Shown here: positions 5,701-63,011 of the stretch, one piece after another
Position numbering within the stretch: position 1 is the stretch's first letter
Layout of the letters: each line of letters starts with the position of its first letter
Source: Apostichopus japonicus
Taxonomy: Eukaryota; Echinodermata; Holothuroidea; Aspidochirotida; Stichopodidae
Reading direction: 5' to 3'
Assembly (NCBI RefSeq): GCF_037975245.1
Contig: NC_092562.1
Coordinates: 13,322,501 to 13,386,500, forward strand
DNA: 64,000 nucleotides
Program-made: the position numbers and the translations under genes
Notes under the pieces: model-generated
What the model was told of the DNA's origin: nothing
What the model saw: the letters and a program-made list of their open reading frames with translations, nothing else
Databases searched by the model: none

Positions 5701-8700
5701 CACGATTGTACAATGAACCTAAACGGGTCTTATTTGTGATAGAGGCTTACTGACTTACTGTATGCGCTCTGGGTCTGTCAGACCTGTTTAATGAGGCTTT
5801 CTGCACCAAAATCAATTTCACTCAGAAAAGTTCTTCCCGCTCCTAAAAGCCGATCAAAAACGGCGACTCGTCACTTTCCAAAGGTCTATTCCGGTGGAAG
5901 ACGACGTAACCTTTATCACAGAGAACAACATTCGACATTGTTGTTCGATAACCCCCATCCCAATACCTTGTCCCTTACTGGAGATACGGTTGATTGAATA
6001 CCATCATTATTCTGACTGGCTATATACCCTCACTAACTCCAGCAAAAGGGTCACAGTAGGTTGTCTGCCGCGTGATGTCCACAAGGGTTATAATATTCTG
6101 TCAATTTATCCTTGAAACATGATACATTTGAAATGTTTGCTTAGCTGTCTATAACATCTTATTGTAGAAATATAATTTTAGATGGGTAAACTATGAAGTA
6201 TTATGAAGAAAACCAAAGGCAATGTCGGCTGAATTGACATGATGACATCTTTCACTCTGGTTTCACCAGATGCGCTCACAAAATATCGACAAATTTGAAA
6301 AATATGCCTTACAGAGATTACAGTAACTACTGTAAATCTAAAGTTTTGTACCACAGTAAATACTGAATCGTGCTGACAAATCTGATAAATCGGTAGCATG
6401 TGCTATTAAGCTTACAGTAACAACTCAAGATATTCGTAATTCCAACAAATCCCAACATCTGGATTTGTTGGAATTACACTTATCCTCAGTTCTTACTGTA
6501 ATCATAATAGCACATGCTACCGATTTATGGCAAGATCCAGTTTTTACCGTGGTACAAATCTGTAAGATTTACAGTAGTAACCGTGTTCTCTGTGTGTATC
6601 GGGTGCATAAGGATGTTGATTGTTTTCGTTAATACAGTTATCTTCAGCCACCAGAAAATGCCCTTTTTTTAATACCGGTGTCACAGTGTAGAATCTCCTC
6701 TCCCTGAGTATTTTATCCGGGTATACCATAATTTAGGGTAAAACATCTGTTCCGTTAATGGCTCGGTTCGTCAGATGATGGTATGGATATGTAAATCAGG
6801 AATGTAGTGCGATGCAGTCTCAGACCATAAGGGTGCTTGAAAATATAGATATGACTAGAAACACACAATTCATTCTCCCACCATTAAAAAAAAAACTGAC
6901 CATGATCAAATACATAATTTCAGTCTTTGCCTCCCCAGCTTGTTTCTGAATATATGAGAGATTTGCATATATTCTTTAATCTTTAATTTGTACTCATTGT
7001 CGTTTCCGGGAGATTTCCAAGTATAGGCTATTCGGAAAGCTATACTCACAGTCTCTGAATGTCACACGTGACATGTTTTATCTCCGGAACGCGAGTCGTC
7101 TCTCTATGGTCACTAATTGTTGCCTCTGTGATAAACGCCAACGTGCGTACGTCTTGCAAACGACAACCGGGAACGAATGTTGAACCAGGGAGTTGTTATG
7201 GAACCACTCCATGGTTGAACCTCTGTTTTGCTCGTAACACATCTTGCGCCAGGAAAAGAAGGGCGAGACTATAGAGTTATAAAATAGTCAATAACTTTAG
7301 GTATGAAAGTAATCCCTTCATTTGTTTGGTAGTGTTATTCCGAATGGGGGAAAAAATGTGTGAAGACATGTCACTGGTGCTCTCTGAAACCTTTCTAAAT
7401 TTATAAACATTTCAAAGAAACATATATATTATGTGTTATGGCGTGTATGATGCAAAGAGTGTGTTTATAAAATGATGTTTTTTGTCTTGATTCTTGTTCT
7501 TGGCATCCGTCGTTATTTTTTCGACTAACAATAATCTCAGTGCTTTGCTATACATGTATAACTACACATAAACAGAGACTGTCTTCGCTAGTGATATTGT
7601 GTGGCTTCCGTTTCCCGTCTTAATCAGTCAGAAATATAAAAATATGCGTCCGTGGTTACACAATAAGTGCCATGGAGATCTATTTCACACATAATTTGGT
7701 CTCTATCGGAATTTGCCGGGCCTCTTTGGTGTCCCCGAGACGGCGGAGCCCATTTAGATTTAGGAGAGGTGGAATGGGGGAAAGGGAGACGTGACGTAAA
7801 TTTCTCGAAATTTGCACCCTGCGAATTCAATCACAAACTATAGAGCACCGAAGGCAGTGAGGTATTCGATGCTATCAAACAGTGGTGGGAGAAAAACATG
7901 GGGTTGTTACTTCCCTATACCGCGTACAATGTAATCCTTCAAAATCAATGGTGCTCTTTACGTGACATTTGTTTTTTGATCCGTTCACTTCCGTATTTGC
8001 TTTTCAAATGAACACAGGATTTTCAGTCCGTCGCTAGACCATTGTCAAAGTTTCTTCTTGGTGAAGAACTAGACGAGGATTCTCTCAGGCGATTAGAGGA
8101 GAATGCAAGTATGAAAGGGATGAAGAAAAGTTATGACGAAATAGAGAAAAAGAGACCCAATGGTCACATGATTACAAAGGCTATGGGGCGGAGTTCTTTT
8201 ATACAGAAAGGTATGAAATGTGAATATAAATTACATTATTTTGTTGAACATTTCTGTATTTGTAATATACATTTGTCGATTCAATAATATAATGTTCATG
8301 CAGCTCTCACCATGCAACAGAGAACTTTGTAACAGTAATTCTCTATCGTGTTTGCATGAAATTGTAAGAATGTTACATGTTCGCCGAATTATTACAAACT
8401 GGCAATACTATGTCGACTTCATATATAGTGAATACGTATACCATTTCAACTTCATACTAAGTGGTAGGCTACTGTATCTCCATATATAGCCTAGCCGCAT
8501 TACTAAGTAGATCCATGGTATTTCGCCAGATATAAAACCACCCGATACGGAAGTCTCGCCGCGACTATACAAGGACAATGTACTAACCATGGAGGTCTTG
8601 TGACTTGCTGACAGGTGCCAGTAACATATTAGATAACCCTTTGTCAGTTGGAAGTGAAACCAGAATGCTACTATAAAGGGAACAATTACTGTACATTCGA

Positions 8701-10607: not shown

Positions 10608-11297
10608 TGGCTGTTGTGCCCTCTGCTGCTGTAGTCAGCCTTGTCACTATTACCGATCGATTCCATGAGTAACTTGTCACACCTACGTCACACCCAAGTG
10701 TGTCCAATTCAAACAGTCGCTGCTACTGGGACACAACAGTGCGTATAACAACGTGTCTCCTGCAGCGACTTCCAATAGGGACAAACAGCCACAAACCAGT
10801 GCATGCAACTATCTTAAAGGCATTGAAGACTCGCCCCAAACCGTGCCATGGCTCTGAAAAAGTTAACTTTCCGTTCCTTGACGTTTTCTTCTTGTCACTA
10901 CAAAATGCAGACAGTATATGAAACGTGATATCTTTTATCTGGACCTGAGATGTCCACGCTGCTATGTACACTGTGTTGTGGGTATTGACCGTAGCTGTAT
11001 ATATTGACTGTACAATAGTGTCTAATTACCGACGGTAGCAAGCTGTGTGTGTATTTTCTGGGATCGATGGTGGTGTCTAACACTTCTGATACACCTCATA
11101 CGAAACTGGGTCAGATTACCGGCATGAGACGTTTCTTTGTGCGCGAGTCTTTACACCCTTCAATATACGCAATTTCGTATGTCCCCGATTTATACATCAC
11201 CTGAGTAAAGAGAGGCAATGGAAATAAACTACCATGCCCAAGGACACAACTCGACATGACAGGACTCGAACCAACAATTCTAAAATCACAAGTCCAG
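10608..11297 (+). repeat. Direct repeat copy 1 (upstream of the fibrinogen-related gene)
   Basis: About 690 bp matching 20808-22056 once the two insertions in that copy are removed. It starts 390 bp after the stop of sulfotransferase A. It keeps the empty target sites for both insertions (TTGTCAC at 10641-10647; AATAG near 10774). Its right part is a tRNA-derived SINE on the minus strand with B box GGTTCGAGTCC, cut off before the tRNA head is complete. Confidence 0.8.
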
Positions 11298-12728: not shown

Positions 12729-13826
12729 CAGGCGCGGCGGAACGGAAAAATTATTGGGGGGGCTAATGTGTGGAGACTATCTAAGCGGAGCGCCACCATC
12801 GGTTGGCGCGGAGCGTACAAGAAAATTTTGGTTTTTTTCAAACCCCCAGATGGCCGGAAACGGCACTTCCCGAGTGTTTAATGCTGCGAATACCTAGCCC
12901 TAAAATATGGGTCTCAAGCCTGCAATTTCTCAGATTGCACCTAAAAGTCTGTAAAAACATTGTAATTTGTATGTTCGATGGTGTTTTAAGAGAGTAGCTA
13001 TTCCTCGTAGTGTACTCGCAAAGACGTTTTTGAGTGTAGTAAGGGCAGTGGCGGAGCTAGGGGTATTGGTCGGGGGGGGGGGCAAGAATGGTCTGTAGGG
13101 GCGCTTTCGACACTATCTAAGCGGAGCGCCACCACAGGTTGGCGCGGAGCGTACAGAAAATTTTTGAGAAAAGATACTCCCTAGATTGCAGGAAATGACC
13201 CTTTCCGGGCCTTGCTAATTTGCAGATTAACGGAGAATAAAAAGGTGTCGTCGCCATTTTGTCGAAAAATTACACCAACAGAATATGACAAATGTCAATA
13301 GGTATATGAGAGCGCAATAAAATAGTCAATAATCGCGAATAAGTAAAAAGTAGTGAAAAGCTGAAAAGGGCGCCAGCAGTCCATTTGAGTCCGTCAGAGG
13401 GGGGGGGGGGGGGCATCCGCCCCTGACTGTATATATGGACGCTCCGCCACTAAGTAAGGGGATGTTGGAGAACTGGCTGAAATGAGGCAAGTCATTGGCC
13501 TAAGACGAAGTTGTGTTACGCTTACCGGTACTCACACTCACTGCTTCCACTTTTCACGGGGCGTGAAGACGCGGTTGGGTGACAATGTGGTCTATAGCCA
13601 GGGGACGGGCCGAGGGTCCCCCAGCAATTACTAAAATTATTACACCTATATATATAGTATACGTGTGCATCGGACAGATCGACAAGTATGCATTGAAAAA
13701 TGGGCAGATGCACGTTTCGGAGCCTTGGTAAATATTGGGGGGGCTTATCATGCATTTGCCCCCTCAACTTTTTCATTGGGGGGCTGAGCCCCCCCCCCCC
13801 AAGCCCCCCCGGTTCCGCCGCCACTG
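12729..13826. mobile_element. hAT-like element interrupted by a second one
   Basis: The ends CAGGCGCGGCGGAACGG and, inverted, CAGTGGCGGCGGAACCGG are flanked by a perfect 8-bp repeat ATCAGAAT (12721-12728 and 13827-13834). The 407-bp element at 13046-13452 sits inside, so the original length was about 680 bp. It contains the shared hairpin module at 12777-12821. No transposase remains. Confidence 0.85.
13046..13452. mobile_element. Nested hAT-like non-autonomous element (407 bp)
   Basis: The ends CAGTGGCGGAGC and, inverted, TAGTGGCGGAGC are flanked by a perfect 8-bp repeat AGTAAGGG (13038-13045 and 13453-13460). It carries the hairpin module at 13112-13156. A fragment of the same family lies at about 27296-27442. 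Confidence 0.85.
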
Positions 13827-19351: not shown

Positions 19352-19629
19352 CAGGCGCGTATAGCCAAGGAGTGGTGGGGCGAAGGGGGAGACTGCCCCC
19401 TCTTTGAGCATATTTCTTCTATTATTTTTATAATATCGCTGGTAATTTCAAAATAGAAAATGCTAAGATGCAACTTACAAGGCCTGGGAAGTGCCATTTC
19501 CAGCCATCTGGGAGGTATTTTTGGCCTAAATTGTCTTGTACGCTTCGCGCCAACACATAGTGGCGCTACGCTTATATAGTTTGCATACAGGCTTCGTCCC
19601 TCCCTTGGGCAAAGTCCTCGTAGCGAATG
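19352..19629. mobile_element. hAT-like element (278 bp), hairpin module on minus strand
   Basis: The left end CAGGCGCGTATAGCCAAGG is clear; the right end is decayed (CTCGTAGCGAATG). A perfect 8-bp repeat TTTCTATA flanks it (19344-19351, 19630-19637). It contains the hairpin module at 19535-19580 in reverse. Same family as 58222-58516. Confidence 0.78.
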
Positions 19630-19637
19630 TTTCTATA

Positions 19638-20807
19638 TGCGTCAATTATAAATAAGTATAATGTATAATTGTATTTATTACCTATATAAATTATTCATAG
19701 TAAAGCTACTTAAGAACCAACGTATTATGATACATGTTTTGAACACACACACACGCGCTCGCACACAATTAGCGAGCTTTTAACCGTTTTGTCAAGTGAA
19801 GATACTTTTCTTAAATCCTGTAATTGTTATTAAATGTTAGGTTTGTTTACCAAAGTTTTCTTTAATTACTTAAAGTCATGACAGCGTTTGCCTAATCTCA
19901 TCGTTATTGCTACAATTTTTTTGGGACTAAAGTAAACGATAAGAGGGTAGTATTGATTATTTCTATAGCTTTTCTGGTTTGAGATATTCATCTTAAAAAT
20001 ATGCTAATAACTCTAGAATGCTCCTATAAGTTTAAATTGATAGCGACGTCGTACTTCTAAGTGCAGACCTATATGTTACTGCTAATCCATATTTTTTTTT
20101 ATCTTTTATTTATTGCTTTGTCATTTACGAATGATTTGTAATGTACTTGTTTAATATACAGAATCCACATTTTTTTAAATGTCATTATAAGCTTAAATAT
20201 AAACATTATTACAACAACAAAAAAACATATTTATTGGTTTTCATACAATTAAAATATGAATTCATAACAAAGAAAAACGAAGTTGGAAAAGGAAAAAGAA
20301 ATATGCAGCGTTGGTAATACTTATGCAGGGAGTAGTAAGTTTGCGAAATACTCGACTCTGCCACTTCGCGTTTAAAGTTTCCTGTTTTCGGTCCTTAATT
20401 GAGCTGATGGTTGACAAAAAAAGGTACCTCAGGTTCCAGTATGAATAGGCTATACTCGATGAAAAGGTTCGTTTACAGTACTCAATATTCAATTTTCCCC
20501 CTTTTCTGAGTGAAGTGGAATTATGAAATTGCGGGGAAAAAATCTGCTTGTTACGATGGCTAAAGTGTCACTGAAATGTATGTCATTTTATTTTACAAAC
20601 TCAAACTGTATATGATTCTTTTTTATCGATGTTGATCCACATGGGTGTATAACCAGAGCACAGAAGTCAACCGTCGGCACTAGAGCCTTGAAACAAGAGG
20701 CCATTTTGGAGCAACGGACAAAACGCCTTTATCGACATGGGGAGGAAATCGGCACCTGCGGAACCTTAAACCTGTCCCACATTCTACGCCTCGCAATCGT
20801 GTATGGC
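19638..20807. other. Intergenic DNA, no gene seen
   Basis: AT-rich sequence with short chance ORFs only; a CA-repeat scrap lies near 19744. Nothing recognisable. Confidence 0.45.
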
Positions 20808-20840
20808 TGTTGTGCCCGCTGCTGTCGTAGTCAGTGTCAC

Positions 20841-20866
20841 CAGGGAGCTGCTACTCTAGCTCCCTG
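20841..20866. mobile_element. 26-bp palindromic insertion with 7-bp target duplication
   Basis: Begins CAGGGAGCT and ends AGCTCCCTG around an 8-base loop. Flanked by GTGTCAC at 20834-20840 and 20867-20873. The homologous position in the other repeat copy (TTGTCAC, 10641-10647) lacks both the insert and the duplication, so this copy is a filled site. Confidence 0.7.
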
Positions 20867-21007
20867 GTGTCACCATCACTGATCGATTCCATGAGTAACT
20901 TGACACACCTACGTCACACCCAAGAGTGTACAATTCAAACAGTCGCTGCTACTGTGACACAACAGTGCGTATAACAACAACGTGTCCCCAGCAGCGATTT
21001 CCGATAG

Positions 21008-21549
21008 TGTAATGGAATATGTAGTTATATCCCCATCATATTACTTTAAACATTTGCTTCCATGCCTCTTTGTCTTAAGAGTAATACTTACTTCCTGTTC
21101 ATGACTTATTCACCCTACACCCACATCACATTCGTAGAAGCCCCCTTTGTCTTTATTCCAAGAACTACTCATGGTTACCACAGATGACAACCTGTTGCAT
21201 CTCATGTGTATTACAAATATGGTTAGTCATAGCACTCGCCTATGTGCCTTAGTAATAAGTAAGACCAAGAGTTTATGTCACACACAGAGCCTTATATCTG
21301 TATATAAGGCTCTGGCCACACAGAGGTTATCGCCCCCTCACAGGAAGTTGTAATGACTTAAATACTGTAGTTTTTTAATATGTTAAAAGACTAAGATTCC
21401 AGACTTCAGAGAGTGTAGTTCAGATTCACTCCAGCAATAAAGCTTATGCTCTACAAGTATGTCTGGAGTTTCTCTTTATCTGTTGTTCATTGTACCTATT
21501 TAATAACGGAGCCCAAACTAATTGAGCCGGAGCACACCCCAACGTAACA
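21008..21549 (+). mobile_element. Solo LTR of an LTR retrotransposon (542 bp)
   Basis: Starts TGTAATGG and ends CGTAACA (TG..CA termini), flanked by a perfect 4-bp repeat ATAG (21004-21007, 21550-21553). The homologous segment near 10774 has the uninterrupted target. Inside are an AGAGCCTTATAT/ATATAAGGCTCT hairpin (about 21276-21313) containing a TATA-like stretch, and the polyadenylation signal AATAAA near 21437. That order suits a U3-R-U5 reading on plus. No internal coding region or second LTR is in the window. A 4-bp duplication favours Ty3/Gypsy-type over Copia-type integration, but this is weak evidence. Confidence 0.85.
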
Positions 21550-21904
21550 ATAGGAACAAACAGCCACAAACCAGTGCATGCAACTATCTTAAAGGCATTG
21601 AAGACTCGCCCCAAACCGCGTGCCGCGCTCTGAAAAAGTTAACTTTCCATTGCTTGCAAATGAAGTTTTCTTCTTGTCACTACAAAATGCAGACAGTATC
21701 TAGACCTGAGATGTCCACGCTGCTATGTACTCTGTGTTGTGGGTATTGACCGTAGCTGTATATATTGACTGTACACAAGTGTTTAATTACCGACGGCAGC
21801 AAGCTGTGTGTGTATTTTCTGGGATCGATGGTGGTGTCTAACACTTCTGTTACACCTCACACGAAACTAGGTCAGATTACCGGCATGAGACGTTTCTTTG
21901 TGCG

Positions 21905-22085
21905 CTAGTCTTCACACCCTTTAATATATGCAATCTCGTATGTCACCGATTTATACATCACCTGAATAAAGCGAGACGATGGAGATAAACTACCATGCCT
22001 GAGGACACAACTCGACATGACAGGACTCGAACCAACAATCCTAAAATCACAAGTCCATTGCCTTAGCCGATTTAACTTGCCGCAT
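21905..22085 (-). mobile_element. tRNA-derived SINE, minus strand
   Basis: Read on minus from 22085: a tRNA-like head starting GCGGCAAG, an A-box-like segment near 22065, the B box GGTTCGAGTCC near 22025, then a body with GTTGTGTCCT. A headless relative occupies the right part of copy 1 (to 11297). The 3' end was not defined. Confidence 0.55.
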
Positions 22086-22362
22086 TACTCATTGATGTTG
22101 CGCCATCATTATCTGCTGTCAGATTGTTATCAGTGCAATTTACATAGGCTTCGTGTCTGTTTATGTACTTCATCAATTTCATAAACGTTGGTTGTTTGAT
22201 TTATCCCTTTTTTTGCGTTCCATAAGTTTACCACGCCGCTGTGAGTGACTGTGCATGTCGTAAATGTGTCCTCTGAACCTATCAGCTCTATATGGATACA
22301 TGGGGCGACTGCATAATACTAGTTAGATGATTGGTGGATACAAAGATTTTGACTGCTACTAC

Positions 22363-22388
22363 CAGGGAGTTGTTATAACAACTCCCTG
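22363..22388. mobile_element. 26-bp perfect palindrome, probable insertion
   Basis: Arms CAGGGAGTTGTTA / TAACAACTCCCTG without a spacer. Flanks CTACTAC (22356-22362) and CTACTAT (22389-22395), a 7-bp repeat with one mismatch. Confidence 0.6.
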
Positions 22389-22803
22389 CTACTATGCAGG
22401 GTATTAATCTGTATGACAGAAATCTTTAAATTGTTTCTCACAGATATAATGAAATATTTTATTGTTGCGTTGTCAAATGTTTGGTGCTTTATGCTTATTT
22501 GTAACATTCGCTGGCCAACGTTGTTGAACTGAAGTATTTTAGTTAGCTTCTTCCCCCCCCCCCCCCCCCCCAAAGCAGGATTTGGCTTTAACTGTCGAAA
22601 TTGGTATGAGAAGATGGTGGACAATTCAACGCAAAATGCATGTGGATAAAATCCAAAATTCACCTAACGTAACAATAAGTTAGAAATCGATCCAGATAAG
22701 TAGTGTAAACTGAACCTTTAAACGTTACCGAACGATAACGTCATATTTGTGAACAAGTAAACCTTGAACTTTATGAAATCTAAAGTTCCTGTAAACAAAC
22801 CAA

Positions 22804-22969
22804 GGAGCAAAGTTGAAAACGTGATTTACTGACAATCAAAATACGGGCTAGTGCTGTTGTGCTCGATCTGTACTCTGTGTCAATGTAATTCGGAAAATCT
22901 AATCGACGCGGTTCTGTGTAGATTAATTTGCGAGTCAACTGAAATAACGTGTTTGCCTAGTCTACTAAA
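22804..22969 (+). promoter_or_regulatory. Conserved 5' flank / probable 5' UTR of sulfotransferase B
   Basis: Matches 2598-2774 upstream of paralogue A, including identical bases next to the start codon. Promoter function is inferred only from position and conservation. Confidence 0.5.
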
Positions 22970-45025
<22,056 letters not shown>

Positions 45026-48000
45026 CGATGTCGATGGTAGTTGTTTCCGATCGTGTATATGTAACCAGAGCATAACCTGGTTAATGTTTTGCATAGTTAT
45101 CATTTTCTTTTATTTTCCACCTTTGTTTCTATCCATTTAATCATTTTCTTATCTTTGTTTTTATTCATTTGATCATTTTCTTTTGTTTGTTTGTTTTTAT
45201 TCATTTGACAATGAATAACCTTTACTTGGTAGATTTATGAGTTCCCTTAATTTTCACTTTTATTGCTAACTACTACATGGCAACAGTTAGTGGTCGGGTG
45301 GCCCTGTGTGACCTGTCTTTTTCTTAAGCTAAGTAATTGTTTTGCGTGGTCCTATTTTCTAGGAATATATGAGTGGCTCCAAGAGTCTATCCCTTTTCAG
45401 AACTGTGGATTAAATAGACAATTTTATAACTTTTGTTTGGTTAGATGATTTGTTTGGTGATAGATGATTATTTTAAATGTACCAAAGGACACCATAAATT
45501 AAGTAATGTGTCTGGTAAATTATATATTAAGTGTTAATTGACAGCTGGTTGGTCACTGGACCACAGATACCAGGAAGTGGAGGGCAAGCTGGTCTAGAGT
45601 TTAAGTTGGTCATGTGTAGGTTGCCTTGTACTATTATTATGGGATGAATTCTTATTATTATGGGATGTATTCTTATTATTATGGGATGAATTCTTATTAT
45701 TATGGGATGTATTCTTATTATTATGGGATGGAGTGAATAAGGTAGCATGGTAGGGGGAAATTAAGATAAGACACTGATGCTGAGTTAAGTTTACAGTAGT
45801 TAGAGGAGAAGAGGGGAAGGATTGAGTTTGTAATAGTTAGAGGAGAAGGATTAAGTTTGAAATGGTTGGGCAAGAGATCATAAGTATTTTCTTAGACTAA
45901 CTTCACCAGTAATAGAGTAGAGGACCAGTATTAAATTAATTAGAAGTTAAATGGACACTTAATTGAAGCTATTTACCCATGGAGTTTTTATAGAAGTTTA
46001 GTGAATACCTGGAGCTTGTTCTACAAATGGATATTCTATTTTAGTAAACACCTGGAACTGTTTTACAAGGAGATTTCATATTTAATAAAAGTTTATCACC
46101 CGGAGCTGTACCAATGGAGGCAGAACTTTATTTAATCCTGTACTAATATCTGGCAACGATATAATTTTCTGTTGTGATGGAACTGAACTATAAATTCCCA
46201 TTTTAATTCAATGTTTGGATCCGGAAGTGAACCCCTGTGATTACCCAACCCGAGTGATGAACAGTTTCTCCTAGAGACGCCCCAAGCTGAGACGCCCCAA
46301 GAGGTTATTTCCCCGAATCGCGAGCTGTCCAGAGAACCACCCAATCCAGAGACGTCCCCTAACTAAGTGAACCGCCCTAGAAGTTTCCCAAGGAGACAAT
46401 TTCGTTCTCAAATTGTATTCGGTCGACCCGCGCAGCGATTTTGTTATTATTTTCGTTGGGACTGATAAGTATTATTTTTCCATTAAGTTCAGTGGAGTCG
46501 TTATAAGAAGTAAGAGTTCCGAGATATGTAAGTTACACCCATTTATATAATTTCACATATAACCTTAAGTAACCCCATTGATATTAATACAACGTTCATG
46601 TGCATCGTAAACACACCACTTTACCTTTATTTGTTTGTTTTTGTGTGAGCATTCCGCCTTTTTAAGTTGTCCCCACGATCTCAGAGTAAATCGGCCCTAC
46701 CCTGATTTGGAGGTGTCACTTGTAATCTTCCCAAACCTAAAAATATATTTAAGCCTCGTCACTGCGTTTTTGAATGGCTACATATATACAACTTGACAAC
46801 ATTTCGAGCAACCAGTCTCATGTGCGCAGTTCACTAGGAAGGCTACTTATTGGTATAATAAGATGTCGTCTTGTTTTATTGACAAACGATATATATGTAG
46901 CACGTCATCGAAAAACATAGGTGGTGGGCAGATATCTCTATTAGTGTTGATCGTTTGATCATTTTGACATATAAACATGATCAGTATGATGTATCACTAC
47001 TTTGTAAAGCATATATAGTGTTTCAATGTCAGCCAAGTGTGATCTGTAGTTTTATATGAATTTGAATGAACATATTTTAATTGTTGTGAGTTGCTAACAT
47101 TTGTGAAACAATGGATTAACACAACACATACGACCGCACTGAGGAGCCAAAGGCATCAACAGTTTAGCTTTAACTAAGGCAGAATTCCAGACATTTAACA
47201 AGCTACGATATTCCTGAGCATTAGGCCTATATATGTATATACTCCAAACTATGTTAGAGACATAAATGAGAGAATAAACACACATGGAGGAAAGAGGGAG
47301 TGGAAGAGAGTGTGTACCTGCCATCAACCACCTTCAACACGAATTTCTTCAGACAGTTTCTGCTGAAACTCCTTTCAACTTTCAAATTCAATTCAAACTC
47401 CAGAAGAATCCGATACCAAGGTGCACACCATCTCTTAGAAGAGAGTATTTATTCTAGCGACTTGATCGTATCAGGAGGGAAATGGTATAATGGCTAGGCT
47501 ATGCTTCTTTCAATTATTCCTTAATTGTAGTAGAGTGAAGTCTTGCTCACACTTGTTCAACCCTGATGACAATGGGGTCAGACCCAAGGTCAATTCTGGG
47601 GCCCAGTGAAGTAATGGATAAAGAGTAAAGTATATACTCATATGGCAGACTTCAGAAAGGGCCCCCCCCCCAGCCCAGTGACATCATTATTCCCATGGCC
47701 TGACCTGCTTCCTAAAGCCACTGATCACACTGTCTGAATCCCTATAAATTAATTCTTACATTGCAATATTCTTTTACTTCAATCTATGAACAAGACTCAC
47801 AAGAGTAAAGTAACAAACTTGAAAGTTTAAGGAAAAAAAGAAACAGTTCACACTTAAAAACAATAACACAAACACAGCAACATTGATACCTATTTATAGT
47901 AGCACTTTTATTAAATCTTATATTATTCACAACAATAGAAAAAAATCTTTCTCTATTCACCACAGTCATTCAGATATTTTTTGCACACAAAACTCATACA

Positions 48001-48171
48001 GTTGTGCTTTCAGTTTTGCACAGACAAATTTCATGACTTCTAGGTAGGCTCTTTTAGTTTTTCCCTATAGAGAAAATGAGGGAAGCTGTTTTGAAGGAGA
48101 TACCGTTTCATGAGCCATTGGGTTTATTAGGATAATGATGTTCCTTCGAACAGCATCCAGTTGGGTTTTTC
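45026..48171. other. Intergenic DNA between sulfotransferase B and NDUFA7
   Basis: Convergent 3' ends face each other here. A 21-bp tandem repeat (TATTATTATGGGATGAATTC, alternating with GTATTC) lies at 45631-45731, about 5 copies. GAGACGCCCCAAGC words repeat near 46273-46300. No exon is recognised. Confidence 0.5.
48123..48128 (-). terminator. Candidate polyadenylation signal of NDUFA7
   Basis: AATAAA on the minus strand, about 45 bases past the stop codon. It is close for a 3' UTR, and further AATAAA matches lie downstream (about 47890). Confidence 0.35.
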
Positions 48172-51100
48172 TCACAAGTAAGGTTCATCTGTGGATAATT
48201 TCCACTGCCTCATACTGCCGGGAGTTACAGGTTTTCTTCCTTCACTTGCTACGGCATCCGATTCACTGGAGGAATGAAATAATACATAAAACGATGTCAT
48301 TATTCAATAAATAAGTGGTGATCCTTCAATAAATAAGAATGGGAAAAAATGCTTTATTTCAGGTATTTTCAGGTAAATGTATACTGAAAACAATCTACAT
48401 AATAGATATACAAATCAACAGAAAATGAAAAAATAAAAAGGAACATCTTTTGGGCATGGAGAAAGTTAAATGGACTGGAAAAGTCAGCTACAAGTGACAT
48501 AGTTTTTCTTACAGGACAGAGATGCTTCTGATGAAAATGTCTCTCCTTAAAAAGTGAAACCACATCCAGATAGCATGCTATCAGTTAGAAATTCAAAAAG
48601 TCCTTTTGCAGCCATTAACTTCTTCAAGCTTTTTTTAACTTTGCACAATATTCATACCTTCCTTCTTTGGAGGGTTCCTTTAACAATTTTGTCTGTGAGT
48701 AGACTACAGTAGGTGGTCCGACTTCTCTTCGGCCATCCCGAGCAAAGTAATAGTTTGCAGCCAGCTTGTGAGACACTCCATCAGGTAAGTTTGGTTCTGG
48801 TATTGTCCTAGAAATTGCACAACATAAATAGCAAATTGATCTGTTAATTACAACTTGAACCGATAGACAACTTGATCCGTCGGTGATAAACAGACAAGAA
48901 TTTAGTTTACACCTTAGACCTCTGTATGCAATCTCAATTTCCTTATCTTTTGAAACTCAGATCAAGAGCTCTGGTTTGATTTCTGGTGTTCCACGTGGCA
49001 TGTATTCACAAAATACTTAAATGAGAACATTACTTTCCAGTCCCTCCCCCCCCCCCTCCCCCAACCTCCACAGAGATCTACAACGACAGTGTATTTTACA
49101 CATCATAAGAGGCAATGACTCAAATACTTGACCTTCATGGTGCTTCATTATTTCATTTTAATAGGTCTTACAGCAAAAAGTTTTTTCTAAATGACATGAA
49201 CAAAAACAAAGATTATTGAGGCACTACGACAGGTTCCATTGCCATATGTATGTGCCTGAGGTGTGTTTATGTGATACTCAATTATACGGTAAAGAAATAC
49301 CAAGTACTGTCCCTATGGGCGTAACAAAATACTAACTAAAATTTGCAGTCATGTTGAACAGCTTGCAGTTTAATATGACTGTGTGAAATCACCTTTGTGG
49401 AATTTATGTTTCTCTTACAGTTATTGGTAAATATGTGGGTTTATATTATTTTTTTATAGTAACTTTATACTGAACCGTTTCCCCCTGGTCACATGACCCT
49501 GCCTCCCACCCCCCCCCCCCCCACAAGCTCAATCTGGCCTTGCACATGATGTCAGTTCTGAGGGGTTTAAAGGCCTTTCAGGGACAATTTATCCAGAATA
49601 ACATTCCAATATCTTATGCAAAATGGTCAAATTCAAACATGCATATATATATATAGCAGTTTTTGTGCACAGGGACCATAGTATTTTATGAGAGAACAAT
49701 ATCTGAGCCCTCAAAATTGCTACACAAAACTAAAGTTGAACATTAAATCATTCCCTGCATTTAGATAAGGGATCAAAGTCAATGACATTTTAGCTGTAGC
49801 TGTTCTGTCAAACAGTAAAATCCAAACCTTGAAAGAAAGAAGAATTCTTCAGCTGATCAACCTGCCATATATATACTGTATCTTCACACAACTTGGGTAT
49901 ATATTCCCACAATTTAGCAACACTTGGGAACTGGTTTATATGTTAGAAAATTTAACAGTCGTCTACAAACCTTGAAGAAATGTCTGGCACAGTTCTGTTA
50001 TTAAGTTTTGCTTGAAGATTTCTCTGTGAAATATGAAAATGATAAAATTAATAAAATCAGTTTGTAAAATAACACGTCTTTTAATTTTATAGTTGTTAAG
50101 TAATTTAGTTCAATGATGGTTGATGAATAAGAATATATATGCTTGCAGCAGTTTTCTTCACATTATCTTAGTTTGATCAATTACTATGACGTTGAAATGA
50201 CAAGAAAACTTGGGAAAACCCTCAGGGCCTATTTTCAGATTAAGGAATATTGTTTTATCAAAGTTAAACTTGTATCACAGAAAATGGCAGCACAAGAAAA
50301 TAGCAGACAGTTTCGATTAAATAAAAAAGAAATGAAAGATGAAATTCACCAAATATGTTAACTTTAAAGCCAACCACAAAAATACCTGTGTCCAGATGGC
50401 AATGTGGCTCTCACAACTACCAACTCCAATGGTTTTACAGTGAGACACACAGTTTTATGCAGCGTCTAAGAGAAGGATCTCCAAATTTCATGTGCGAAAG
50501 TCTTAAGCCATTACAACAACCAAATCATGTTAACATTGGGTTGTGGATTATTTTCATGTGATGAAATAAATGATGGGAGACTTGTGAATTCTCTTTTATG
50601 CAGTGCAGAGTGCACTTCTACCTGCAGGCAGTGGCCGAATGTCAAAAGCAATTGGTGGGGCTTATTCGCAGGGCAGCCCTGCGAATAGCCGGACACAAGT
50701 TTCTTATTCACAGGGCAGCCCTGCGAACAGCCGGATACAGACACCTTATTTGCAGGGCTGCCCTGCCAACAGCCGGACACATACACCTTATTTGCAGGGC
50801 TGCCCTGCGAATAGCCAGACACAAGAATCTTATTTGCAGGGCTGGCCTGCGAATAGCCAGACACATACACCTTATTCACAGGGCAGCCTTAGACTGGGTT
50901 AACGGGCTCAGTAACTTTTGGGGCTATTCAAATTTGCTTTTGGGCACCAGCTATCTTTTTGAGAGTCTTAATTGAGAGCCCCTATATTTTGAGGAATTAA
51001 TTGGCCTTTGGGATTCCTATCTTAATGCTGTTAGGATTGGTTTTGGGAGCCTAGGGCCTTAAGATTGAACCAGTCTAGCATTAGTACTGCCAACATAAAA

Positions 51101-51954
51101 AATGTCATCCCTCATTTTCACATTTGTTTTTGCAGAGTGACTGCTCATTTGCATGTAAAGGTGTGGGAGGGGGGGGGGAGTGTCACACCCTTGACCATAT
51201 TGGCTTTCAGGCAATGTCGGCTTTTGGGGAATCCCAAGATAAGCTCCCTTAAAATAAGCTTTTAAAATTGAACTGCTGGGGTTCCAAAAATTAGCTTATG
51301 AAATGGCTAAGACTATTTGGGCCCAAAAGGTTGGCTTTTCAAGGCCCCTAAACTGACTGGTATCAATAGCAAAACCTAATAATAAACCTATTTTCAAAAT
51401 CGTCACAGCCCTGCAAATAAGGTGTCTGTGTACGTTATTCGCCGGGCTGCCCTGCGAATGATCACTTCGAAAGCAATGAGTATTGACTTCAAGCCTAACA
51501 GTCAATGGTTTCACAATTTGATAATCTCCACTTTGTAAATTACAGGCAACAATCATCTGTTGTTGGATTTCATATTTTATTAGGATGTTTTCTTTCCATG
51601 AGAAGGGAAAGTGGTGGCAGGTCTGAGACGATCTTTGCTTTGATCCTTTGACAATAAATCATAATTTTGCAATAGTCTAGTTTACAGTTCGGCATACAAA
51701 CTAAGTTAACAACATACTGCACTGTACACCTATGATCTAGCCTAGGCTTAGGCCTACAACTTGGCGAAGCCTAGGCCTATGGTACGTGCTAATACAATAG
51801 GCAACACATTGAGCTGACAAAATAAGTGTAGCCTGTAAATGTACGTAAGACATACCTCTGAAGAAAGTAGACATGTAATCAAGTAAGCAACGATTAAACT
51901 TACCCCAACGAGGAAGTTCCGAAGATTTTGTATGAATTTCGTCGCGGTCGCCAT
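48172..51954 (-). CDS. NDUFA7: NADH dehydrogenase 1 alpha subcomplex subunit 7 (complex I), 4 exons
   Basis: An accessory subunit of mitochondrial respiratory complex I, on the matrix side. Exons on minus: 51904-51954, 49971-50023, 48658-48807, 48172-48265, all GT-AG with phases 0,2,2. This gives 115 residues; the vertebrate protein is about 113. It opens [17 protein letters not shown], continues [18 protein letters not shown], has the signature block [20 protein letters not shown] (about 41-60) and ends [18 protein letters not shown]. SHKLxxNYYxxRDGRR and the W-x-LSxDxPYL tail are the family landmarks. There is no cleavable mitochondrial presequence, as in the family. The start is the first Met. 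Intron 1 (1.9 kb) holds a hairpin minisatellite. No defects are visible. Confidence 0.95.
50663..50890 (+). repeat. 42-bp minisatellite with GC hairpins in NDUFA7 intron 1
   Basis: Five to six units, each with a GCAGGGCTGCCCTGC palindrome followed by GAATAGCCGGACACA. All frames stay open because 42 is a multiple of three. A related inverted piece lies at about 51402-51460. Confidence 0.88.
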
Positions 51955-54900
51955 CGTCTATTCCGAAAGCTACACTTTGCAGGGTGACCAGAATTTGAAC
52001 AAAATATGCTAACGATTTTCGTGTTGTAGAACTTGCCAAGGAAAATGTCTAAAAGTAATGAACGCCAAATGGGACATGATGGCAATTTGGACTGCCAACA
52101 ATGAGCCATAAAAAAATTAAAAAATACGCAGTATATGTGGAATACCTTCACGTCGTGTTTCTTCTCTTTGTGTCTAAATCGTAGAATTTAACTATTATCA
52201 AGAATAGTTCATTCTTTTATGTGTGGTTGATGTATCTGCTTTCTTTTATAAAGATCATGTGAATAAGAGCCAGATATGCAGGGTTCATTTAAGATTAGCC
52301 TATCCCAAGGCCGGATTAAGATTATGGTATGTTTGTTGGGTCAGTAAAGGTGGACAAAATTTTGCTCACGACCCGACCAAGACCCAACAGTCGGTCCTCC
52401 TCCTGACCAAATCAGGCATATCAAACATGTTTGATATTCGTTGTGGCATGGAAGAGTCGTGAAATAAGGTGACGACTACAGAAAGTCAAAATGGCTGCCC
52501 CCATATGGAACTGATGAGCAAGAGATTAAACTGTTGGGTTACGTCGAGTCGGGCTAGTGTGCAGCTAACCAACAAGTGCGACGCCGACGTGACTAAGTGG
52601 CCAGGACTATCTCCAACTCATTCCCAACAAGTAGTCCAGAAGAGTCGCTTGGGTCGGTGCAAATTGCGCCAGCCTTTAGGCATATTGATGAACACGATTG
52701 GTCTATTTTGTCTAATACACAAACCAGATATTAGGTCAATTCATCAGACTCACAAGGAAAACATGAGCATTTTATGGGCTCAAATAACAGAGTTAAGTAA
52801 GTAAGTTTTCAATCCAATACAAATTTGTCAAGGACAAGTTGTGTTGAATGTAATGCAAGCATGCTCTGTTGTTAAAGAGCAGTGAAAACAAACATGTTTT
52901 GATTGAGTTATTAGTATTTTTATGAAAAAATGAATTAAACAATAACATTTAGAACCCGACATCGCATTGCAGAGATTGAGCATACCTTCTAAAATAGTTG
53001 CAGAAACATTTATCAATTTATCAATTTACAATTTATCAATTTATCAATTTACAATTTATCAATATGGAGCTATAATTTATCAATATGGATATTCTGCCTT
53101 AATTCACCCTTTAATCTGTTGAACTTCATAATAAAAATTGGCTGTCATAACTGAAATTAAGTGCACAAGGGGTCAAATATTCAACAACAAAAGTCAAATT
53201 GAAAAACAGATTGAAAAAAATATATTAAAAAAATAAACAAATAAATTTAAACAAATAAAAAAAATTAAAACAAAAATCAATTTTTGTATGAACAAAGACA
53301 GACAAAAACAAATTGAAACAAAACAGTAAACAAGACAAATAAAAAGAAACAAGAAAGATGTAGACAATAGACCATTATCAGTCTGTAACATAATTTATTA
53401 TTCCTTTTGATAACAGAAAAGACATTGCATGCAATAAATCGTGCATTAAATTAAATTTTCAATTTGGCAAGATGAATACACCAATTATACTCCAAACTGT
53501 GCAGACCATGTGTGAAATAATAATGCACTGCCTCACGATCTTGGTTAAAAACTGCTCACCTAACTCCCCCCCCCCCCCATCCTGTCCGTACCTTTCCCTC
53601 TATCCTTCAGCATTGGAAAGATTGAGAACCACAGTATGACTTTAGACAGATTTTCCACAAATGGATTTTGAATTCCCAAGCCCCAAAAGATGAAAATTGT
53701 TGGAAAAAAACAACAACCTCAAATTTACCTTTATACAACTCTTTCAATCAGTTAATTTATCAGATATACAATGATTATAGTATCATACAGTTTATGGTAT
53801 CATAAAATATTTGAGCTGACAAAGTGGTTAGTTACAGAATACTCTCTAGATTAGACTGTGGCTTACATTCATTATTACAATCTCTTCAGATACCAGCTAG
53901 AACATAACCATCAGAAGAACCAGTAGCTTGAAAACTTTTACAGCTTTTTTAGTAACTCAAGATAATGAGTAATGTTACAAAGTGTTATCATACCATCATA
54001 TCTGTTCTTTCGGTGGAGCGTAATTGCACATATCACGTTCGGGGCAGGAGCCAGCACATGATTCTATTGATAATCGCGATTGCACTCAAACGTTGTATAC
54101 GTAAGGAAATTCCATGAGAAAAGTGACGAGCGAGAATGTTGTAATAAACAAATCCTGTCTCGTAAAAGCATCTGAAAGACCAATCGAGCTATGTTAATCC
54201 TTCAGAATAGTAGAGAAACGGCTTTTGATTATAACAAAATACAATTTTAAATTTAAGTTCTTTGCATTTAATAGGGTTGTAAATTTGTGTCACTCATAAC
54301 AAAAAGATTTCATGTTGGTAAAGTGGTAAATTGTTAAAATAAAAAGATAAAAAATAAAAAAAGACAAGATGGTGATTAATATAGACATAAACCAATTGTT
54401 CAAAATTTAGGATGAAAACATCAGGGCTCTCTGATATGTATTTAATGGAGATTCCAGATTAATTCCTCTTTCTGATAGATATTTTTGAGCTTGAAAAATT
54501 GTAATGCAAACAAAAAACGAGTCAAACTGTTGCACCTGCTGTGGATTTATGGGCTCAGTTCCTGGACCCCAGCATAAGCCCTTGAATTCTGCCCCTCCCC
54601 CACCTCCCAATTAGTAATGGTCACCTAAACCTTACAGTTGTAATTATGTAAGAACTTGTCTCAGAAATGTGAATGTGATATTGATCTACATTAGTTTGTA
54701 GCACAAAAGACCATAAACAGATGCTTGGAATCCATGAGAATCCAGACCGTTTCTTATCAAACCAGATATCGATAACCAGTCCAGACAACAAGGAGTTCTC
54801 AATGGGCAGCCCCAGTGCCAACCCGAGGTTGTAAAAAGGATTGCAATCCCAACGTCTGAACAAAATCGGCCCAGAATTTCCACGGATGGGTACGACGGTC

Positions 54901-56983
54901 CTTATGGATTAGCAACCGACCAGCCTACCTGGCATATTTGACGATCGGTAATCGATCGATCAATCAGAAACGTTTACATAGCGATCTAGGTACAGTGAGA
55001 TTTTGATTCTCTCCGGCACCTAACTTTGCTCCAACCAATGTTTCTCTTTGGCCCGTATAGAAAAAAAGGAATTGAGGCGTCCTTGTCTAGACTTCACAGC
55101 AGCCTGCATCATCTAGTCCCATGGAAGTTTCAAACTAACAATGCCCACATGATATCTATATTATTATCGAGTGTGCTTAAAGTATTCAGTTTAATTTAAA
55201 GGTGTAGCAGTCATTTGTTTTGGTAATAATGCCATTTTGCCACAAGTAGAACTAACTTGATAGAGTTTTGCACAGAAAATTGCAAAACTATCCTTCATCT
55301 GCGGATTATAGGGAAATACAGTCAACAAACCCGACCTTATAACACTTGTTTTATCTAGCAATTTGGAGTCACTTAAATAATATTGAAACAGACCACCAGT
55401 CTATAATTAAGTATTGAATACAGCAAAATACTGGGATGTGGTCGAAGAGAGGCCAGGGGAGGGGAAGAGGGAACGGACAGGGTAGCCTTTCCCTCATCCC
55501 AGCCCAGCTCTCTCATACTGAGAAAATGAAAACACAAAGATGACTACACTTAAAATGCAAAATAACAGAGAGTGAAAAATGGAGAGGTGCGCAATATCAT
55601 TAAAGGTCCTCCCTCTGTGGTAGGATGTAGCTATTATGGAATACAAGACCCCTCATAACCCCCACCCCAATTTTGACCTCCCCCCATAACCCTCTTTCTC
55701 TGGTCTGGATCAACTCTCCTAGTATTTGAAATTTAATCATATCAGTGTTGATCTGTATAAATCTCTGTGTAAAATTACAATAATATTACAAAATAAAGTA
55801 TTTACTGTACTTTATATTTTGCTTCCCCATGCCATCACCTACCAATCACCTTTGAAACATTTCACAATCCTACAAAAGGCCCATTTTCAAAGAGAGGCAT
55901 TAAAAAAAAACAAGAACACAATTTGAGAGGAGTCATTCCTCTCGGTATTCACCTGATGACGTATTAAACGACTTCAATCGAGTGAAAGAGAATCAAGACA
56001 GAGATGTGATATTTCCAAATTGTTTCCAGAGAAGAAACACAAAGATTGATCCCAGTTGGCAACAATTTAATCAAACCATTAACCATAATAATCCTAGCTG
56101 GATTTTTCAAATGTCAAAACTACTTATGGCAAGACCAAACTTCTTTAGTTACAATTACTACAAAATCGTGTCAAATTCTTAAAGATTGGTTGCAAGTTGT
56201 CATTTACAATGGCCAACAAACATGGGGGGGAGAGTGGAGGGAATTATAAAAATATTGACTGTGTCAAGCTCTTTAAATTTTGGTTAAAGTTGTCATTTAC
56301 ACTGGTCAACAAACATGGGGTGTGGTAAAGGGTGGGTAGGGGGAGGGGGGAGGGGGAATTAAAGGAAATATCAACCTTGGGGAGAAAAGTAAAATGGAAG
56401 TACCAAGATGGCTGTGAATGTTTGCAGCATGAGTAGGTTTAATCCTGCATCATTTAAATTATCACTTTTTAGTAACAATTTTGTTGTCGTTTTCTGGGGG
56501 TTTTTTCAACTGCTTTTTAATAGCTTTTTGACATGCAGTAAATGCCTATCTACATTAAGATCCATTTATAAAAAATATTTGTCACCAATTTAGGCAAGTT
56601 TGGCAACCGAAACAATTTATCTCTCACTCATTATGAAGTGCTCTTGAGAATTAAACATTCGTACAATTTCCTCCTTGGCTGTCAGTGTTTAGGATGGAAA
56701 CCAACCATGTTTTCAACCATTGTTTGGTGTAAAAAAAAATCAATGGCACGGTGTAATAAACAAAGTTCATGATTACCACTTTTTTTCGCTACAAATGGGC
56801 AGTTTAATCGCTTTTGTGAATGGACTTTTCCAAATGCTTCATCGGTTCTCTTCTCTTTTTGCTTCATTTCAGCAAATCAATGATATTTTCAATCGTTTCT
56901 AATACTCGGTGTGATAATCTTTCCTTCTCTTCATACTCCATTTTCCCCGCAAATCTTTACATCTAGTGGATTCGGTAAAAATC
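51955..56983. other. Intergenic DNA between NDUFA7 and the fukutin 3' end
   Basis: NDUFA7 and fukutin are both on minus, fukutin upstream. Contents: TTTATCAA short repeats (53020-53085), an A-rich tract (53200-53360), a poly-C run (53567-53578). An 80-codon minus-strand ORF (54621-54863) has no recognisable domain. No gene is supported. Confidence 0.45.
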
Positions 56984-59900
56984 TTAACTTTCTTCTACCT
57001 CGATAATTTCAAAGACTTGCATGACTTCCGGCCATTCTTCTTTCGGCCACTGACCGTTGGGTATGACATTGGGGGGTTACTCTTCCAGTTCCAGCTGGTC
57101 ACCTTGGTGTTCCAAGACTTTCCGTAGTTGGCTTCCACGTACGACAGAGTTTGGCAAGGCACTCTTACTTTGATTCCGATAAACTCAGTCCAGCAGAGAT
57201 CGAACCACGGAAAAATGTATCTGAAAAATAAATCCGTAGAAAGTATTTCAGATAGCTATATGCAGGGATTTGCCCAGGATTTCCTGGAAGTGATTTTTGA
57301 AAGTGCTCAGATGCCAAATGCTGGCACTTGTGTAGCTTTTTAAGCACAAGTACTAGTTTTGCTAACAATTTGCATTTTTAATTTTTTTTTTAGTGAAATT
57401 TATTACATACCTGGTAAAAGATTTTACAAGGGACCGATTGAGAGCCGTAAGTCATGTTTCTCTCATGCGTAACTGATGCATTATTAGTCTGTATGACTTT
57501 GGCATTGGCTAGGCCCAATTTATGTTGAATATGTTGTTAGGAATGTCGGGATTTTAGATGAAAATAGTGCTGGGCGGGATTCACGATTTTTAAGGATTGA
57601 GCATATTATGCTCAAACAATTTAATACTTTTATGGGTGGGATATGTTAAACATACCCCACCCATAAAAGTATTAAATTGTTTATCAACTAGTCCAAAAAC
57701 AAAGGGATTCCATTTATTCCAAACACAACAACTAAACTCAACTCAATCCAACTTGAATGAAGCCCCGAGGCATTTGTGATATCAAGGCCAAACGATTTGG
57801 CCGTGGGAGGGGAAAGAGGGAGGCTAAACATATTTTGAAATAATACAGCTCTATTAGAAAATTAATGACTTTTAAGCAGAATTTTGCACTCAGCTTGAAA
57901 GGTTCTTTCAATGTAATATTTAGCATCTCTCTCTAAACAGTTCATATGTCCTTTCTAGTAATCCAGAAATTTCCATGTATTTGCAGCATATTATTTTTGT
58001 TGGACTCATATTGGATTATCATTATTATTTTAGGTAAATTTTTTTCTCACTTTGCTATGTTTAAAGAATAGAGAGATTAGAACAATGTCTTAGACCAATT
58101 CAACAATACTGTGTAATATATGCAAATGCATTCGATTTTGGGTGTCGACCAAATTAGCCATACAGATGACGATCATCCGTAGGTTTGATAAACTTGCTGA
58201 CCGAAAACATAAAACTTCTTTCAGGCGCGTAGCCAGGAATTTGCCAAGGGAGGGACAAAACTGTAGATTCGGCATTGCAAACTATCTAAGCGTAGCGCCA
58301 CCATGGTTGGCGCGAAGCGTACAAGAAAATTTTGGCTGAAAATGCCTCCCAGATCGCTGGAAATGGCACTTCCCAGGCCTTGTATTAAATTGCATCTTAG
58401 CATTTTCTCTTTTGAAAATACTAACCATATCATAAAAACATTAAAAAAAAATTTAAAATATGCTCAAGGGGGGCGGCTGCCCCTTCGCCCTCCCCCCCCC
58501 CTTGGCTACGCGCCTGAAGTCTTCTTTGCTTTAGAAGTTGTTCAGTAACATGGAGCCATATCTATCCTCCATTAACAGCCTCCCTTCCCTCAAACAAAGC
58601 AGCCCCCTCCCTCCTCCCCCTTTCCCCAGCAGTTATGATGCGCCTCCACCTTGTCAACCCTCTTACTTGTATTTCTCGCCGGTACTTGTGTCCGATCCCC
58701 CGTTCCATAGAGTATTACCTTCTTCATAGAAAAAGAATATATCCAATTTGAGTTGATCTTTCACAAACGAAAGTTCGTAGCTATCACTCCTCTGAGGAAC
58801 ACAAAAGGCAGAGAGAAAATTGTATCAATTTTATAGTTTCATAAAATTTATGACTACACTTTATAAAGATTTACATTATGTTAGGTTCATAGGAAGTTTA
58901 TCTTAAAAACGAAATCATGCAGATATGCTTAAAGGATTGGTTCAGTTGTCATACATGTTTATGTTATATGAAAGAGGACAATAAAAGAAACACAAGGTTG
59001 AAAAAACTGTTCAAATACCTTTTTTGGTTAAAGAGATGTTCAATGTAAAGTTTTATCAGATTGTGTAGAAACTGCTGTAATCTGACTAGCTGTGATGTCA
59101 CATCCTCACATTCCTGAAAAGTCTTTGTTTTTTTCTCTAAATATTTTGTGAGATTTCATGACTTTTCAACCAAAAAATATGTCAGGAGATCTCATATTTG
59201 TCAAAGGAAGTATTTGAGATTAAACATCTGAAGACTTTTTGATTATATTATTTTCAAATGTGTTAAAAAATGTAAATAATTTTTAAGAAATATATTCACA
59301 AATGTTAAGGAAGTGAGGATGTGACTTCACACCCTCCAAGTCTTTCTACACCATTCGTTTTCAACAGAAATTTTGATATCTTCAAAGTGTCATATCTCCT
59401 TAACAGAGCATGCTATCATGGTAGTTCCTTCACTGTTCCTTTTGTCTTTTTGTGCTCTTTCATACAAAAAAGACAAGTCAAACACCTGAACCAATCCTTT
59501 AAGTCTCACTATTAAACATATCAATAGTTCACACTGGGCTTTTTTATTAATTCTGACTTCCTTGTCAATAACAAATTCCTCTGTTTATGTCTCATCCAGT
59601 TTGAATATTTTCTTTAATTGCAATTAACAATTTTCTCTCTTTTATAGTTCAAATATACCGTTAGTTCATCTTCCATCTACTGATTTCATAATCAGGTACA
59701 ATTAATTAATAAACTGTACACTGAAACCCAGGTCTTGTCACATTAGAGCATAAATGATTGCATGCTAACACTGTGATACAGTTTCAGAAACTCTTGAAAC
59801 ACAAAATATTTAAAGTTGATCGTAGTTTTCATAGTTTCAAAAGGTGATACTCTGAATCTGTATCCATTTTACCAAAAGTCTTGCTTCTCTGAAACACAAT

Positions 59901-62900: not shown

Positions 62901-63011
62901 TCGTAATTGCACTCCAGGAATGTAGAATGTTGGATCTGATTTAGAAACTTCTTGGGATACTTAGGGACCATAAAGTAGACGTTATCGACCTTTACCTCGG
63001 CAAATTCCATT
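56984..63011 (-). CDS. FKTN: Fukutin (LicD-family ribitol-phosphate transferase), last four exons; 5' end outside window
   Basis: A Golgi type II membrane enzyme that adds ribitol-5-phosphate in the O-mannosyl glycan of alpha-dystroglycan. Exons on minus: 62749-63011, 61664-61797, 58667-58791, 56984-57220, GT-AG, phases 1,0,2. The first carries [17 protein letters not shown] and [13 protein letters not shown]. The second has [20 protein letters not shown], with the Asp-x-Asp of the LicD fold. The third has [18 protein letters not shown]. The last has [26 protein letters not shown] and, after a shift, [13 protein letters not shown]. Frame damage: in the last exon a run of six C (57072-57077) shifts the frame after NWKSNPP. 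Homology resumes in the next frame, as one extra C would give. A sequence or assembly error in the homopolymer is more likely than a null allele. The N-terminal half and membrane anchor lie beyond 64000. The Met at 63008-63010 is not the start; the acceptor lies just before it. Confidence 0.92.
57614..57682. repeat. 69-bp near-perfect palindrome in a fukutin intron
   Basis: 34-bp arms (AAACAATTTAATACTTTTAT at the outer end, GGGTGGG inside) with one mismatch and a one-base loop. Confidence 0.88.
58222..58516. mobile_element. hAT-like element (295 bp)
   Basis: The ends CAGGCGCGTAGCCAGG and, inverted, CAGGCGCGTAGCCAAGG are close matches. Hairpin module at 58281-58325. Flanks AAAACTTCTTT and AAGTCTTCTTT match 9 of 11, so the duplication length is unclear. 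Located in the last fukutin intron. Confidence 0.75.
58933..59498. mobile_element. TTAA-target MITE (566 bp)
   Basis: Perfect inverted ends AGGATTGGTTCAG between TTAA (58929-58932) and TTAA (59499-59502). Looser complementarity continues inward, with a second inverted pair GATGTCACATCCTCA / TGAGGATGTGACTTC (about 59092 and 59312). TTAA targets are typical of piggyBac and Kolobok superfamilies. Confidence 0.82.
60105..60268 (+). repeat. 15-bp minisatellite, about 11 copies
   Basis: Unit GCCCGAGTACTTATT, very uniform, with an AGTACT palindrome per unit. In a fukutin intron. Confidence 0.92.
60431..60800 (+). repeat. Degenerate 20-bp tandem repeat
   Basis: About 17 units of CACACTGTTGTACACATACT form, some extended with TCACATCACAC. 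Long His/Thr-rich frames are artefacts of the period. Confidence 0.88.

Follow-up and report, generated by a model that had tools for sequence, protein, structure and literature searches.

Short flanked palindromes as candidate excision footprints of a P-superfamily DNA transposon

Three palindromic inserts of 28, 26 and 26 bp, each of the general form CAGGGAG...CTCCNTG and each bracketed by a 7-bp repeat, look like real, transposon-derived traces, as does a fourth relative of 33 bp. We consider it probable, though far from certain, that these palindromes are excision footprints of a P-superfamily DNA transposon. Their structure appears to fit published P-element excision junctions best, the ceiling of 17 nt on each arm included. 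Most likely, then, they are a known kind of product, the P-type excision scar, met here as relics. We could not match the end sequence of the palindromes to any named element. All four lie in a single stretch of 64,000 nucleotides (the window), which looks like animal nuclear DNA.

Palindromes, flanking repeats and chance expectation

An earlier note on this DNA had described three palindromes with the flanks GTTGAAC, GTGTCAC and CTACTAC/T, and both the coordinates and the flanks were confirmed (Table 1). The repeats are perfect at 7186 and 20841 and match at 6/7 at 22363. The shared form CAGGGAG..CTCCCTG that the note ascribed to them holds at 20841 and 22363, whereas at 7186 the palindrome is imperfect and its right end reads CTCCATG. 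The fourth, longer palindrome, said to lie at 31851-31887 without a duplication, is likewise present. Its core is 33 bp, growing to 37 bp once the outer TC/GA is added, and the 7-base flanks of the core (TACTCTC / GACGCAC) are alike at 4/7 by eye, with no clear 7-bp duplication. An alternative parse of this site places a 21-bp palindrome inside the 8-bp flanks TCCATGGA / TCCCTGGA, alike at 7/8, but it says little because TCCATGGA is its own reverse complement and so is part of the inverted repeat anyway. All four CAGGGAG-type inserts are 34 bp or shorter.

Table 1. Palindromic inserts, their flanking repeats and related sites in the window
Feature	Position	Strand	Sequence and remarks
Left target duplication	7179..7185	.	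GTTGAAC (or 5-bp TTGAA)
Insert, 28 bp, TT-type	7186..7213	.	arms CAGGGAGTTGTTAT (14) + GG + AACCACTCCATG (12)
Right 7-bp target duplication	7214..7220	.	GTTGAAC
Left target duplication	20834..20840	.	GTGTCAC
Insert, 26 bp, CT-type	20841..20866	.	left CAGGGAGCTGCTACTCT (17) + right AGCTCCCTG (9)
Right target duplication	20867..20873	.	GTGTCAC
Left target duplication	22356..22362	.	CTACTAC
Insert, 26 bp, TT-type, perfect palindrome	22363..22388	.	arms meet on AT
Right target duplication	22389..22395	.	CTACTAT (6/7)
Relative, 33 bp, CT-type	31853..31885	.	left arm CATGGAACTGCTACTCT (17) + right arm of 16 bases
Paralogous site without insert	10641..10647	.	TTGTCAC; CCT at 10639-10641 extra relative to filled copy
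Possible second family, 30-bp palindrome	21285..21314	.	CAGAGCC...GGCTCTG; 8-bp flanks GTCACACA / GCCACACA (7/8)

Palindromes with matching flanks are unlikely to have arisen by chance. When CAGGGAG and CTCCCTG were paired over the whole window, with at most one mismatch per end and a length of 20-60 bp, seven pairs were obtained and the flanks of three were alike at 6/7 or better; across 200 third-order Markov windows, such flanks occurred at 3 of the 419 pairs obtained. The palindrome at 31853 lies outside these seven because its left end has two mismatches. As a background, 0.66% of 191,871 arbitrary 7-mer pairs in the window (spacings 26, 28 and 33) reach 6/7. A 13-base end combined with flanks at 6/7 or better, at distances up to 4 kb, recovered exactly the three sites and nothing in 10 second-order shuffles. 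The end motif alone (up to two mismatches) is weakly enriched, with 22 occurrences vs 12.9 and one of 100 shuffles as high.

A scan blind to sequence turned up 16 short inverted repeats flanked by 7-8-bp repeats in the window, vs a shuffled mean of 3.1 (maximum 8, 163 shuffles) at a complexity (entropy) threshold of 3.0, which was chosen after stricter filters (3.6, 3.7) had lost known sites; the 16 take in tandem-repeat regions (50679, 50805), and we do not put them forward as 16 insertions. Four of the matches in the window start with CA, vs 40 summed over the 163 shuffled windows. With the filter at 3.6 there were six clusters vs 0-2 in 30 shuffles, 21285 and 22363 being kept and 7186 and 20841 lost; at 3.7 there were four vs a mean of 0.59 in 212 shuffles, with all four known sites lost. 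Without a complexity filter the scan was swamped by AT repeats.

The target duplications are odd palindromes about a free centre, with 6/6 inner pairs complementary (chance 4e-4, from window 7-mers) and 8/9 pairs in the three duplications once the outer pairs are counted too (1.6e-4). Galileo, a member of the P superfamily, makes 7-bp duplications (8 bp in three D. willistoni copies) with the consensus GTAGTAC, GTATTAC or GTANTAC, according to PMC4168063 and PMC2775673. Compared with GTANTAC, our three duplications (GTTGAAC, GTGTCAC, CTACTAC) match at 13/18 informative positions in a post hoc comparison of three sites, for which 200,000 draws of three window 7-mers gave a chance of 6.5e-5. Galileo is thus like the inserts in the length of its duplications and in its palindromic GTANTAC-like targets; it differs in its long terminal inverted repeats, and the comparison concerns duplication and target alone. 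A duplication of 5 bp also fits (TTGAA, TGTCA, TACTA, perfect in 3/3), and then the ends become CC...GG, or CC...GC with the last base changed in the third copy (22363). We prefer the 7-bp parse because it yields CA...TG ends and needs one base change; 5 bp is possible, and three copies are too few to settle the length.

Arms, joints and the proposed excision

The inserts have two types of end, namely CAGGGAGTTGTTAT at 7186 and 22363 (TT-type) and CA[G/T]GGA[G/A]CTGCTACTCT at 20841 and 31853 (CT-type), and as far as can be read both arms of a locus are of one type, the right arm at 20841 being 9 bases. The two CT-type left arms are alike over 17 bases, with two substitutions, and then diverge: 20841 continues into AGCTCCCTG, its 9 right-arm bases, and 31853 into 16 right-arm bases. 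Because the palindrome at 31853 is 16+1+16, with the shared 17th base at its centre, a single base decides between an agreement over 17 and one over 16. Among the TT-type bodies, that of 22363 consists of CAGGGAGTTGTTAT + AACAACTCCCTG and is a perfect palindrome in which the AT at the joint could derive from the left or the right arm, and that of 7186 consists of CAGGGAGTTGTTAT + GG + AACCACTCCATG, with two substitutions in its right arm. Lengths and joints vary across the four loci, yet the two TT-type bodies hardly differ. A possible reading of the joints is 14+12 with GG as filler (7186), 17+9 (20841), an AT overlap (22363) and 17+16 (31853), and the GG may be the 2-bp filler of an excision footprint. 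We infer these arm lengths and joints, the parent end being readable up to base 17.

We suspect that the parent was a P-superfamily DNA transposon with ends beginning CAGGGAGYTGYTA, and that each insert would be the scar of one excision. On insertion, 7 bp would have been duplicated at a palindromic target, and both duplications and palindromic targets are seen at three sites. The transposase would then make a widely staggered cut at each end, with one strand broken 17 nt into the terminal repeat, and some 17 nt of transposon sequence would stay at both donor ends as a 3' tail, as is established for Drosophila P. End joining could seal the break with or without trimming, by short microhomology or with filler bases. 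The product would be the duplication, up to 17 nt of the left end, up to 17 nt of the right end, and the duplication again, and it would be palindromic because the two ends of the transposon are inverted repeats. In such a scheme 22363 would have the same design as the AT product of Drosophila (26 bp, AT central), 7186 would be an AT-type joint plus GG filler, 20841 would have its left tail complete and its right tail trimmed, and 31853 would keep nearly both tails.

The junctions made by Drosophila P provide the closest comparison in structure. P transposase cuts with a 17-nt stagger and leaves 17-nt single-strand 3' tails at the donor site, as described in PMC10983969 and PMC2895639. Table 1 of PMC2895639, the part of that paper on which our tallies draw, lists repaired donor sites from Rad51-deficient spn-A flies (66 isolates by our own sum). 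By hand tally, both 8-bp duplications survive in 35/66 isolates together with 9 nt or more of each arm, and 14/66 have one and the same joint, a shared AT within a perfect 30-bp palindrome. In the other 31/66 junctions one arm or both are down to less than 9 nt, and filler (1-15 nt) can take a product beyond 34 bp; for both reasons a ceiling of 34 bp is a soft test. The Drosophila junctions resemble the palindromes in that intact duplications bracket 9-17 nt of each terminal repeat (in the 35/66), joined by microhomology, bluntly or with filler, and in that some are perfect palindromes. They differ in their 8-bp duplications and CATGATGAAATAACATA ends, and they were made by experiment, whereas the palindromes here would be genomic relics.

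The CA...TG ends of the inserts agree with those of P (CATGATG) and of Pdre2 (CATACC). The zebrafish element Pdre2 / THAP9 shares with the inserts these CA...TG ends and a short (13-bp) terminal repeat, and differs in its CATACCTGTCAAC ends and 8-bp duplication. Passages of a paper on human THAP9 (PMC8230255) say nothing on the stagger. The earlier note knew of no named family that fits. To this the P superfamily is a candidate answer, through the 7-bp GTANTAC duplications of Galileo and the 17-nt stagger of P. We infer that the parent belonged to this superfamily; neither a parent transposon nor its transposase turned up in the window, in the scans described below.

The paralogous site and alternative readings

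The stretches 10623-11296 and 20848-22057 are paralogous, with pieces 86-89% identical. When the two are aligned, GTAGTCAG is followed by CCT TGTCAC in the copy without the insert and by TGTCAC [26 bp] GTGTCAC in the filled one. The site at 10641 had been proposed as an empty site without insert or duplication. It does lack an insert and has a single copy of the target, TTGTCAC (6/7), whose first T is also the T of CCT, but it is not a clean pre-insertion site because the three extra bases CCT are present. The site could have arisen by deletion, or it could be unoccupied and differ by a 3-bp indel. Judged from this alignment, the single target copy agrees with insertion after duplication of the segment, and a deletion leaving a short scar could produce it as well. 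The palindrome at 21285-21314 sits in a 546-bp stretch (21002-21547) that is absent from the paralog at 10773, and it is possibly a second family of footprints, with an 8-bp duplication.

That the inserts are either tiny mobile elements or relics of deletion is, for the two accounts together, a minority possibility. In the first of them, which we find rather unlikely, the palindromes would themselves be mobile, as minimal two-end MITEs moved in trans by a transposase. Target duplications and common ends are indeed present, TT-type copies at two different targets have nearly the whole body in common, and short palindromes are abundant in the window (17 vs 1-4 in 5 shuffles). However, the four copies differ in length (26-33 bp) and in joint, 26 bp is too small for internal repeats like the subterminal repeats of Pdre2, and a precedent was not found in the literature among the matches listed. 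MADE1-like MITEs also consist of two inverted ends with little between them and a flanking duplication; unlike the palindromes here, MADE1 is about 80 bp, with a uniform body and a TA target. If palindromes of 26-33 bp did move in trans, they would be the smallest DNA transposons, two abutting ends of 13-16 bp without a body, and we know of none smaller. The suggestion that these are among the smallest mobile units survives in part: the traces are real and look transposon-derived, but the footprint alternative that the earlier note itself offered fits best, and mobility of 26-bp units appears in no result.

The second account derives the palindromes from larger hairpin elements, whether hAT, P or other, that lost their centres by palindrome-mediated deletion after insertion. 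It is quite unlikely, although 20841 equals the 33-bp form at 31853 less seven central bases, substitutions aside. No longer version of the family with matching flanks came up in the window at distances up to 4 kb, and all four copies would need to have lost everything past about 17 bp per arm.

We regard as improbable an origin as footprints or fragments of a superfamily other than P, one that cuts with a long stagger or makes duplications of a different length, such as 5 bp with CC...GG ends. The duplication parses equally well as 5 bp, and CAGGG-type ends occur in hAT elements too. However, hAT elements leave hardly any of their terminal repeat behind on excision, if any, and make 8-bp duplications, whereas the three flanked CAGGGAG copies have 7 or 5 bp; flanks of 8 bp (7/8) are seen only at the separate CAGAGCC palindrome. 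Chance palindromes or an assembly artefact, which short sequences, few copies and the modest excess of the end motif alone might suggest, are scarcely credible; the shuffle controls on end pairs with matching flanks speak against chance.

Search for a parent, implications and other repeats

Neither a P-type transposase nor a P-type transposon was found in a Pfam scan of 30 of the 253 listed open frames of the window. The Pfam matches in the window are fibrinogen-C exons, a sulfotransferase fragment, fukutin and a complex I subunit, and for the sulfotransferase fragment a protein-based scan of viral_contigs gave no relative. The 13-base end-pair scan found no longer CAGGGAG element with matching flanks up to 4 kb in the window. 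A looser end-pair scan to 20 kb, run without a null and with a 3-mismatch limit at which it missed 20841, brought up two additional pairs (19770-24262 and 47084-62902), both with poor ends.

Exact matches to the pattern in public collections (3 viral and 21 bacterial or archaeal loci) are unrelated, with a 7-bp direct repeat in 0/24 by eye. In the literature, these end sequences were not found in print, in a search that covered few subscription papers, and neither tiny nuclear palindromic elements nor fossil P footprints were among the matches listed; both results are weak evidence of absence.

If the reading of the palindromes as P-type excision footprints is true, plain genome sequence keeps a record of how a P-type transposase, extinct or undescribed, placed its cuts, and a histogram of arm lengths over one assembly would give the stagger in an animal whose transposase is unassayed. 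The joints would in that case record break repair in the germ line concerned. Annotators would also have reason for caution, as such scars should not be named miniature elements.

The window holds other repeats. Twin palindromes of 32 and 30 bp (24583-24614 and 24625-24654) have identical TGGTGGGGAC ends and ten bases between them, without a clear flanking duplication. A long hairpin at 6392-6521, in which an 80-bp palindrome (6417-6496) extends outward to about 130 bp by eye, is perhaps an ordinary hairpin element, and further hairpins of 64-79 bp lie at 39050-39113, 57614-57682 and 33977-34055. The region 29110-35350 carries ATG/GAT triplet arrays of great length and repeats of the PPGQIPPG type, together with a 273-bp direct pair at 100% identity and a 270-bp inverted pair at 98%. 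A dispersed repeat with a core of about 100 bp, about 69-91% identical between copies, occurs in both orientations at 12767-13229, 19482-19620, 24162-24977, 26381-26479, 34266-34422, 40237-40464, 41513-41609 and 58210-58516.
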